DNA of 64,000 nucleotides from Chloroflexota bacterium. GTDB taxonomy: Bacteria; Chloroflexota; Dehalococcoidia; GIF9; UBA5629. Shown piece by piece: positions 33,845-36,801 of this stretch. The translations under genes and the position numbers were made by a program. The notes beneath the pieces were generated by a model. It was not told the DNA's origin. It saw only the letters and a program-made list of their open reading frames with translations, and searched no databases. Location: assembly GCA_016875875.1 (NCBI GenBank), contig VGOP01000002.1, forward strand, positions 1 to 64,000. The letters run 5' to 3'. The first letter of the stretch is position 1. Every line of letters starts with the position of its first letter.

Positions 33845-34222
33845 ATGAGGAGAACTAAACAGAAAGAGGCTATTATCGAGGTGTTGAGGGGTACGAACTC
33901 TCATCCCACGGCTGATTGGTTATATAACGAGGTGAAGAAGGAGATACCTAACATCAGCTTGGGGACAGTATATCGTAATCTCAGATTGCTATGCCAGAGC
34001 GGGGAGATATCAGAGCTGGACATTTGCGGTACTGTGAGCCGGTTCGATGCCAGACAAGATAACCATTATCATTTCAGATGTGAGAAGTGCGGCCAGGTGT
34101 TTGATGTCGATGAGCCGGTGAACAAAGAGATTAATGGCAGTATAGCCCGGAAAACAGGCTTCATGGTTGTATACCATAAGCTTGAGTTTCGTGGAGTATG
34201 CCGGGAGTGCCAGGATAGTTGA
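33845..34222 (+). CDS. Fur-family peroxide/metal regulator, PerR-like
   Basis: 125 residues: a winged helix (HPTADWLYNEVKKE, SLGTVYRNLRLLCQSGEI) and a dimerisation domain with RFDARQDNHYHFRCEKCG, carrying the aspartate and histidines of the regulatory metal site. Two CxxC pairs (CEKC, CREC) form the structural zinc site. This pattern is closest to PerR. It heads the oxygen-defence district and has a dyad at its own promoter. Its regulon probably includes the genes that follow. Confidence 0.88.
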   Translation: MRRTKQKEAIIEVLRGTNSHPTADWLYNEVKKEIPNISLGTVYRNLRLLCQSGEISELDICGTVSRFDARQDNHYHFRCEKCGQVFDVDEPVNKEINGSIARKTGFMVVYHKLEFRGVCRECQDS

Positions 34223-34240: not shown

Positions 34241-34414
34241 ATGGCAAAAGCGGTAATAGCACTCGATGAGCAGCAGGTAACCAGGTTGGAGCAGGTCATT
34301 ATTGACCATGATGAGGAGGGGGCGTGGGAGCTGTTGGCTGAGATAAGGGCGAAGGTCAAGGCAACACAAGACACTCGCTGCGGTGTAGAGAAGTTGAGGA
34401 AAGGGGTGCAGTGA
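34241..34414 (+). CDS. Small hypothetical protein
   Basis: 57 residues, acidic-basic and helical (LDEQQVTRLEQVIIDHDEEG, AWELLAEIRAKVKA), with one cysteine. No family recognised. ATG 34241 has GGGAGG upstream and lies 18 bases after the Fur-family stop, so the two are co-transcribed. Small ORFs of this kind often follow Fur-family regulators in anaerobes, but I assign no function. Confidence 0.65.
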   Translation: MAKAVIALDEQQVTRLEQVIIDHDEEGAWELLAEIRAKVKATQDTRCGVEKLRKGVQ

Positions 34415-34501: not shown

Positions 34502-34589
34502 CAGCTTTTTATCTAGTGAGTGACGGGAGGCAGAAACTCCGCTTTCAATGAGACAAACGCCCCCCCTAGTAAACCAAAAGGAGCATGAA

Positions 34590-34826
34590 ATGGCAAAAGA
34601 GGTTAAAGTCTATTCTACCACTACCTGATCCTGGTGCATCAAAGTCAAGCAGTTGCTGGACGAAAACAAAGTTATTTATAAGAATCTTGATGTTGCCAGA
34701 GATAAGGTTGCTCGTGAGGAGATGCTCAACAAGACAGGGCAATTTGCTGTGCCCGTCATTGACATCGATGGTGAGATTTCCGTTGGCTATGACGAAAAAT
34801 GGCTGAAGCAGAAGCTGAACCTTTAG
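34590..34826 (+). CDS. Glutaredoxin-like selenoprotein (UGA at codon 13)
   Basis: An ATG with AAGGAG seven bases upstream opens a frame whose codon 13 is TGA (34626-34628). Reading through gives VYSTTT-U-SWCIKVKQLL and then a normal glutaredoxin/NrdH-type fold (FAVPVIDIDGEISVGYDEKW) to TAG at 34824, 78 residues. The TGA replaces the first cysteine of a CxxC active site (UxxC). A hairpin GTCAAGC-AGTT-GCTGGAC (34644-34661, one mismatch) has its loop 23 bases after the TGA, where bacterial SECIS elements lie. It sits 16 bases before trxB, its likely reductant. A cysteine-to-stop pseudogene is the alternative, but conserved downstream coding argues against it. Confidence 0.82.
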
Positions 34827-34842: not shown

Positions 34843-35754
34843 ATGTACGACTTGATGATTATCGGTGGTGGTCCTGCCGGCATGACAGCAGCCGTCTATG
34901 CGGCACGAAAGAGGCTGAATGCCCTGTTGCTTAGCAAGGACCTGGGGGGCCAGGTCAACTGGACATTGGGTATAGAAAACTATATGGGCTACCAGATCAT
35001 CGAAGGTCCGGAGCTGATAAAGAAGTTTGAGGAGCAGGTAAAGCAGTTTCCCATAGATATAAAAACCGGGGAAGGTGTCAGCAGTTTATCCCGAACAAGC
35101 GGCGGCTTTGAGGCTAAGACCGATAGCGGTGAGACCTATCAGGCTAAGGCAGCTATAATTGTAACCGGCAAACGTCCCCGCCCCTTAAACGTCCCGGGCG
35201 AAGAAAAACTCAGGGGCAGAGGGGTTACTTACTGTGCTACCTGTGATGGTCCCCTGTTTGCTGATATGAAGGTGGCTGTCATCGGCGGTGGCAATTCAGC
35301 CCTGGAGGCCGTTGATGACATGGTCAAAATCGCTGAGCATGTCTATCTGGTATCATTGACTCAACTCACCGGTGACCAGATATTAATTGACAGAGTAAAG
35401 AGCGCCGTGAACCTGACGATGTTTTTGGAGCATGAAGTTGTGGAGATAACCGGAGAAAAACTTGTGGACGGGATAAGAGTAAGGGATTTGAAAACGAAAC
35501 AGGAAAGGGAGCTTCAGGTTAGTGGTGTCTTTATTGAAATCGGTCTTATCCCCAATTCGGATTTGGTGAAGAATGTAGTTACGCTTAACCGCCATGGGGA
35601 AATCGAAGTTAATTGTAATAATGAGACCAATGTACCGGGGCTTTTCGCTGCTGGCGATGTCACCAGCGTCCCGGAAAAGCAAATAGTGGTGGCTGCTGGT
35701 GAGGGGGCTAAAGCAGCCCTTCAAGCCCATCGTTATCTGCAGAGGCTGGGCTGA
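34843..35754 (+). CDS. trxB: Thioredoxin reductase
   Basis: 303 residues, full length: FAD motif MIIGGGPAGMTAAVYAARK, redox-active pair in YCATCDGPLF, NADPH fold AVIGGGNSALEAVDDM, and C-terminal GLFAAGDVTSVPEKQIVVA. It would reduce the adjacent selenocysteine-type glutaredoxin-like protein, making a two-gene reducing system next to a PerR-like regulator. Confidence 0.95.
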   Translation: MYDLMIIGGGPAGMTAAVYAARKRLNALLLSKDLGGQVNWTLGIENYMGYQIIEGPELIKKFEEQVKQFPIDIKTGEGVSSLSRTSGGFEAKTDSGETYQAKAAIIVTGKRPRPLNVPGEEKLRGRGVTYCATCDGPLFADMKVAVIGGGNSALEAVDDMVKIAEHVYLVSLTQLTGDQILIDRVKSAVNLTMFLEHEVVEITGEKLVDGIRVRDLKTKQERELQVSGVFIEIGLIPNSDLVKNVVTLNRHGEIEVNCNNETNVPGLFAAGDVTSVPEKQIVVAAGEGAKAALQAHRYLQRLG

Positions 35755-35934: not shown

Positions 35935-36801
35935 ATGCAGTTACAAGGAAGTAAAACACAGGAAAACTTACGTAAGGCTCTTGTAAGAGAACTACATGCT
36001 CGTGCTAATTATACATATTTTGCTGAGGCTGCCAGAGAAGCCGGCCTTGAGCAGATAGCCGAAATGTTTTTGACGACAGCTCAGAATGAAGCGGAACATG
36101 CCGAGCATGAGTTTAAATTCCTTGGCCGCCTCGGTGATACTGCGGCAAATTTGAAAGTGGCTACTGGTCTTGAGCATGAGGAAGCGACCAAGTTGTATCC
36201 CGAAGCGGCGAAGGTGGCAGAGGAGGAAGGTTTCAGTGAAATCGCTGATTTCTTCCGCAGGATGTGTAAGGTTGAGGCGAATCATGAAAAGAATTTTAAT
36301 GAGCTGCTGGAAGCGTTGAACAAGAGCAAGGAATTTAAAGGCAGGACAGTGGGGCATTCAGCGGTTGAGATGGCGCAACTGATGTTGCCACACCAGACTA
36401 ATCCTGCCGGTTTTGTTCATGGTGGCGAGTTGATGAAGCTGATGGACAACGCTGCCGGTGTAGTGGCTGCCCGCCATAGTCGGGCTAACCCGGTCACTGC
36501 AATGGTCGAAGACATCAATTTCCATAATCCGGTGCGCGTTGGAGACTTGGTGCTGGTGCATGGAAAAATCACTTTTACTAGCCGCTCATCAATGGAGGTG
36601 CGGATAGAGGTTGAGGCAGAGAATCTTCTCAGTGGCAAGCGGCTTCCAGCGCTGACTGCCTATTACGTTATGGTGGCTGTGAGCCTTGAGGGGAAACCTG
36701 TGGAGGTGCCGACTCTTATCGTCATTACCGAGGAAGAAGAGAGGTTGTTTAATGAAGGCTTAACTAAATATCAGGCGCGCAAGGCGAAATCTGGCAAGTG
36801 A
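35935..36801 (+). CDS. Rubrerythrin (erythrin domain) - hotdog thioesterase fusion
   Basis: Residues 1-128 form a rubrerythrin-like four-helix ferritin fold, with diiron ligands in [29 protein letters not shown] and [13 protein letters not shown]. There is no rubredoxin domain. Residues ~138-265 form an acyl-CoA thioesterase of the YciA/BFIT hotdog type, with [31 protein letters not shown] and [13 protein letters not shown]. Fusion of the two is unusual. The frame is continuous, with no internal SD at the junction. ATG 35935 follows GGAGG. It may couple peroxide sensing or reduction to lipid-acyl turnover, which is an inference. Confidence 0.85.

Follow-up and report, generated by a model that had tools for sequence, protein, structure and literature searches.

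A predicted selenocysteine-containing YruB/Cp9-like glutaredoxin encoded beside a thioredoxin reductase-like flavoprotein in Dehalococcoidia

Main finding

The window analysed here is a 64,000-nucleotide stretch of an anaerobic Chloroflexota bacterium (positions 1 to 64,000 of contig VGOP01000002.1, assembly GCA_016875875.1). It encodes a 78-aa glutaredoxin (34590..34826, + strand) in which the TGA at codon 13 is predicted to be read as selenocysteine (Sec). Translation, homologues, profile scores and substitution pattern confirm that the gene is genuine and that an earlier note, made from the sequence alone, had observed codon 13 correctly. We are highly confident that the product is a selenoprotein and a YruB/Cp9-type glutaredoxin, predicted to be decoded by SelB and tRNA-Sec and, by analogy with a clostridial system, to pass electrons from the adjacent TrxB to a peroxiredoxin or another disulfide. 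A well-supported selenoprotein and many relatives are thereby added for a class of largely uncultured anaerobes.

A TGA codon in place of the first active-site cysteine

Translation of 34590-34826 gives MAKEVKVYSTTT*SWCIKVKQ...KLNL*, with one internal TGA (34626..34628, + strand) and a TAG stop. Alignment with homologues puts this TGA where the note had put it, at the first Cys of the CxxC motif. That Cys is replaced, giving a UxxC motif (U13-S-W-C16). The note's favourable view of the ribosome-binding site, the stop and the downstream conservation was also borne out: a Shine-Dalgarno sequence, AAAGGAG (34577..34583, + strand), lies just 5' of the ATG, the reading frame closes at TAG, and dN/dS is low past the TGA. 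We scanned the window for other TGA-interrupted genes and found none convincing besides this one; the remaining candidates, judged by inspection with no family scan, had tiny or unconserved upstream parts or were normal gene ends.

Homologues were sought in 84,980 species genomes and, in a further search, in 393 genomes of the class Dehalococcoidia. The same codon is TGA in the three nearest relatives (L009, L010 and L011) and in a more distant one (L035), all separate assemblies, while all non-TGA homologues of the first scan, over 70 Cys forms, have TGT or TGC there. Sequencing error is thereby excluded. Many further TGA forms came from the class search. Across 176 sequences the site holds TGA in 45 (a number that counts some repeats as well as the Grx-PDZ fusions described below), a Cys codon in 131, and TAA or TAG in none. 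The short-form Sec loci collected from Dehalococcoidia number 21, or 19 distinct once two repeats are set aside.

The alignment proposed in the earlier note, which had named homologues ending at the TGA as evidence against its reading, instead showed a Sec or Cys codon at the site and conservation continuing beyond it. Beyond that codon, identity split by codon position (1/2/3) was 0.95/0.94/0.83 against L009 (dN/dS ∼0.14) and 0.91/0.95/0.65 against L010 (dN/dS ∼0.07). Substitutions on this side of the TGA are thus mostly in third positions, the signature of purifying selection. A pseudogene or an assembly error might be suspected, as the TGA breaks an otherwise ordinary Cys-glutaredoxin family. 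Such an origin is nonetheless extremely improbable, given the recurrence of the TGA across genera in independent assemblies, the low dN/dS and the lack of any other stop codon among the 176 sequences.

Selenocysteine machinery and stop-codon use

The source genome (1.97 Mb, 97% complete) was searched by family for the Sec genes that the earlier note had recommended looking for, and whose absence it would have counted against Sec. All four are present and score over their cut-offs: selA (562 bits), selB (360 bits), selD (391 bits) and tRNA-Sec (74 bits, with anticodon tca according to ARAGORN). They cluster within ∼7 kb on contig C12. The SelD encoded there (L137:2364-3431) has an in-frame TGA of its own (...GAGUASKLG...) and is a selenoprotein too.

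TGA ends nine of the 14 window genes checked, and so is a normal stop here. A lineage-specific reassignment of TGA to Trp or Gly, with no Sec recoding, would also explain why an in-frame TGA is tolerated. But the use of TGA as a stop by these neighbours, the position of the codon at a redox Cys and the full Sec machinery in the genome make that account vanishingly unlikely, and we retain the reading as Sec.

The selA gene tends to accompany the Sec form. In the first homologue set, selA was found in three of four Sec-form genomes vs one of 17 Cys-form genomes. Within the class it was present in 13 of the 15 genomes with a Sec form and in 11 of the 32 that have Cys forms alone (one-sided Fisher p 0.0009, a guide only, the genomes being related). 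Completeness is 77% and 79% for the two genomes that have a Sec form but no selA.

A SECIS-like hairpin downstream of the UGA

Folding, another check suggested by the earlier note, produced a hairpin of bacterial type with a G in the apical loop, the window's own copy being modest by computation. The predicted SECIS stem-loop GUCAAGC-AGUU-GCUGGAC (34644..34661, + strand; computed at ∼ -6.2 kcal/mol) has one A-G mismatch in its stem (GUC.AGC-AGUU-GCU.GAC), and its loop G lies 24 nt 3' of the UGA. Against synonymous-codon shuffles the window hairpin reached p ∼0.056 when 30 nt were considered and ∼0.21 for 42 nt; sequences taken one at a time were only suggestive, with p ∼0.03–0.06 over 30 nt and no significance over 42 nt.

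The signal is much stronger across the family. When the hairpin had to have five or more stem pairs and a G-U or G-G loop at this place, ∼24 nt past the UGA, it was found in 17 of the 19 distinct short Sec forms; among 124 Cys forms, 13 had it (p 4e-12, again a guide for related sequences). For the most frequent register, 99% of the pair cells were paired, compared with 63% in Cys controls, and the stem pair 7-21 alternates between C-G and T-A across sequences. The loop start shifts by one base between groups, and no clear hairpin was seen at the expected place in the Sec forms L174 and L177. Two Cys forms, L176 and L207, retain a hairpin with a GUU loop; these may be remnants of a lost Sec site, as would be left by a recent Sec-to-Cys change.

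Family assignment

Read with the TGA as Sec, the protein passes Pfam Glutaredoxin PF00462 at 60.5 bits (gathering cut-off 22.9). The best NCBIfam model is YruB TIGR02196, and its score of 80.3 bits falls under the equivalog cut-off of 88.55, so we call the protein YruB-like and do not file it as a YruB member. Of the note's label, glutaredoxin/NrdH-like, the first half stands. NrdH identity was rejected at 33.7 bits (cut-off 85.75), far weaker than YruB, and the YruB/Cp9-like assignment takes its place. No ribonucleotide reductase (RNR) genes were found among the neighbouring genes scanned by family models.

The probable TrxB partner and the gene neighbourhood

TrxB starts 16 nt past the glutaredoxin stop codon. 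Structure relatives, family models and synteny describe it as a TrxB/AhpF-C-like flavoprotein disulfide reductase of 303 aa with a CATC motif (34843..35754, + strand) and the likely electron donor of the glutaredoxin. The closest relatives of known structure are AhpF proteins, which it resembles in their C-terminal part. Among NCBIfam models, AhpF (337 bits) outscored thioredoxin reductase (307 bits), both below cut-off, and we saw no HRRxxxR NADPH motif in the translation. Another protein of the same genome (C9, 374 bits) scores over the thioredoxin reductase (TrxR) cut-off; the adjacent TrxB is therefore probably a second, specialised reductase.

Upstream lie a Fur-family regulator (33845..34222, + strand) and, between it and the glutaredoxin, a conserved small ORF of 57 aa with no family match (34241..34414, + strand), conserved in L009 (85%) and L010 (79%). 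The earlier note had called the regulator PerR-like; the Fur family assignment held and PerR was the best match, but at 113 bits it fell short of the PerR equivalog cut-off of 200. Downstream of TrxB is a rubrerythrin-like domain fused to a hotdog thioesterase (4HBT) domain, a peroxide-defence candidate by family models and synteny (35935..36801, + strand). The order Fur, 57-aa ORF, Sec-glutaredoxin, TrxB, rubrerythrin-hotdog, NifS is intact in L009 and L010.

The note's pairing of the glutaredoxin with trxB is kept in relatives. Of the 21 short Sec forms, 17 have TrxB within the next 250 nt downstream, as do 50 of 127 Cys short forms, the latter from several phyla; gene order shows the Cys version of the Grx-TrxB pair to be common in other phyla.

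A proposed selenol relay

We propose that UGA codon 13 is decoded as Sec by SelB and tRNA-Sec, guided by the computed hairpin just downstream, and that electrons would run from NAD(P)H through TrxB and the Sec-glutaredoxin to a peroxidase or another disulfide. The AhpF/TrxR-like flavoprotein, with NADH dependence probable, would reduce the U-S-W-C selenenylsulfide. From its position upstream, the PerR-like repressor may control the genes.

The onward step, to a peroxiredoxin or another disulfide, is modelled on Clostridium pasteurianum. According to PMC3720550 (citing Reynolds 2002), the glutaredoxin-like Cp9 is encoded there between the NADH-dependent TrxR Cp34 and the peroxiredoxin Cp20, and hands electrons from Cp34 to Cp20. 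The two systems are alike in having a small Grx-like carrier with a motif of the C-P-[YW]-C type encoded beside an atypical AhpF/TrxR-like reductase, and by analogy in the role of that carrier. They differ in details of the motif (first Cys replaced by Sec and middle residues S-W in the window protein), in the host, here a Dehalococcoidia-related Chloroflexota, and in that no peroxiredoxin gene adjoins the window pair. The window couple is most likely a selenol version of the Cp34/Cp9 relay.

Searches of the source genome with the families PF02955 (glutathione synthetase) and PF04262 (E. coli-type GshA) found neither. TrxB rather than glutathione (GSH) is therefore the likely reductant, and a classical GSH-glutaredoxin role is unlikely.

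The substrate is the least certain step, because family models found no peroxiredoxin among the genes neighbouring the couple, and the standalone peroxiredoxin of the genome (C2:96160-96633) adjoins a Cys-glutaredoxin and an FTR-rubredoxin fusion. Peroxiredoxin-family genes do occur elsewhere in the genome. The Fur/PerR-like and rubrerythrin neighbours suggest a role in peroxide defence. The Sec-glutaredoxin, though real, could instead have a main job other than peroxidase reduction with TrxB, serving RNR, MsrA, rubrerythrin-linked partners, or FeS or selenium chemistry with the nearby nifS-nifU. That would suit the nifS, nifU and TusA-like genes that follow downstream in the same direction, and the Sec-glutaredoxin of C. 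oremlandii, which serves a Sec-MsrA (Kim 2011, a title cited in PMC13188914). We consider it rather unlikely, since adjacency to TrxB is kept across phyla, adjacency to nifS is rare among relatives, and the Cp9 precedent is peroxiredoxin reduction.

The second locus just mentioned (C2:95312-96633; L188:620-1941) appears to place a Cys-glutaredoxin with a CVWC motif in one operon with an FTR-beta/rubredoxin fusion and the peroxiredoxin, and may be a second redox relay, of ferredoxin type.

Relation to known selenoproteins

Sec-glutaredoxins are a known kind of selenoprotein, and the window protein is a new one, on the TrxR-coupled YruB/Cp9 branch. Our literature search, partial in coverage, found no YruB/Cp9-type Sec protein described from Chloroflexota. 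UXX-star selenoproteins (NF041114, NF041212) share a small Grx-like fold with Sec, yet the window protein scores far lower to them (31–50 bits), and the UxxT motif of UXX-star family 1 differs from UxxC, which keeps the resolving Cys. The AhpF N-terminal domain (TIGR02187) is a double Trx fold, whereas the window protein is a single 78-aa Grx that partners an AhpF-C-like reductase. A selenoprotein homologue of that domain (PMC13188914) resembles the window protein as a Sec-containing Grx-like carrier tied to AhpF-type chemistry.

Selenoprotein glutaredoxins have been listed since 2006 from Geobacter, Alkaliphilus and Moorella (PMC1794560), and that of C. oremlandii is cited as characterised (PMC13188914). 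Like these UxxC proteins, the window protein has the glutaredoxin fold and Sec at the first active-site position. It differs in scoring far higher to YruB (80 bits) than to GRX_bact (49 bits), a comparison made on its own scores alone, in being paired with TrxB, and in coming from a genome with no detected GSH synthesis genes.

Sec/Cys interchange and longer relatives

On a tree of 44 Grx+TrxB pairs, built with the Sec/Cys column omitted, nine Sec/Cys changes are needed (8–10 in bootstraps, with at least five forced by well-supported branches), counted without direction. The residue has thus switched repeatedly between Sec and Cys. Close Sec/Cys pairs, sometimes within one family, offer a means to measure what selenium buys. 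We tentatively suggest, thinking it slightly likelier to be wrong than right, that Dehalococcoidia use the Sec-glutaredoxin and the adjacent AhpF-C-like reductase as a dedicated selenol relay free of glutathione, in effect an AhpF split in two whose carrier contains selenium, and that at least five Sec/Cys interchanges in it have left SECIS remnants in some Cys forms.

Many Chloroflexota also encode a Sec glutaredoxin with a UPxC motif and a long C-terminal extension, ∼170–190 aa (L117, L127, L132, L139-L151, L153-L157, L217 and L218). A PDZ domain was found in the extension of L132, the one long form scanned. We did not find a Grx-PDZ fusion named in the part of a 2026 review available. Truncation by standard gene callers is expected for the window gene and the wider Grx-PDZ family. 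The UPxC long forms carry a very clean SECIS-like hairpin.
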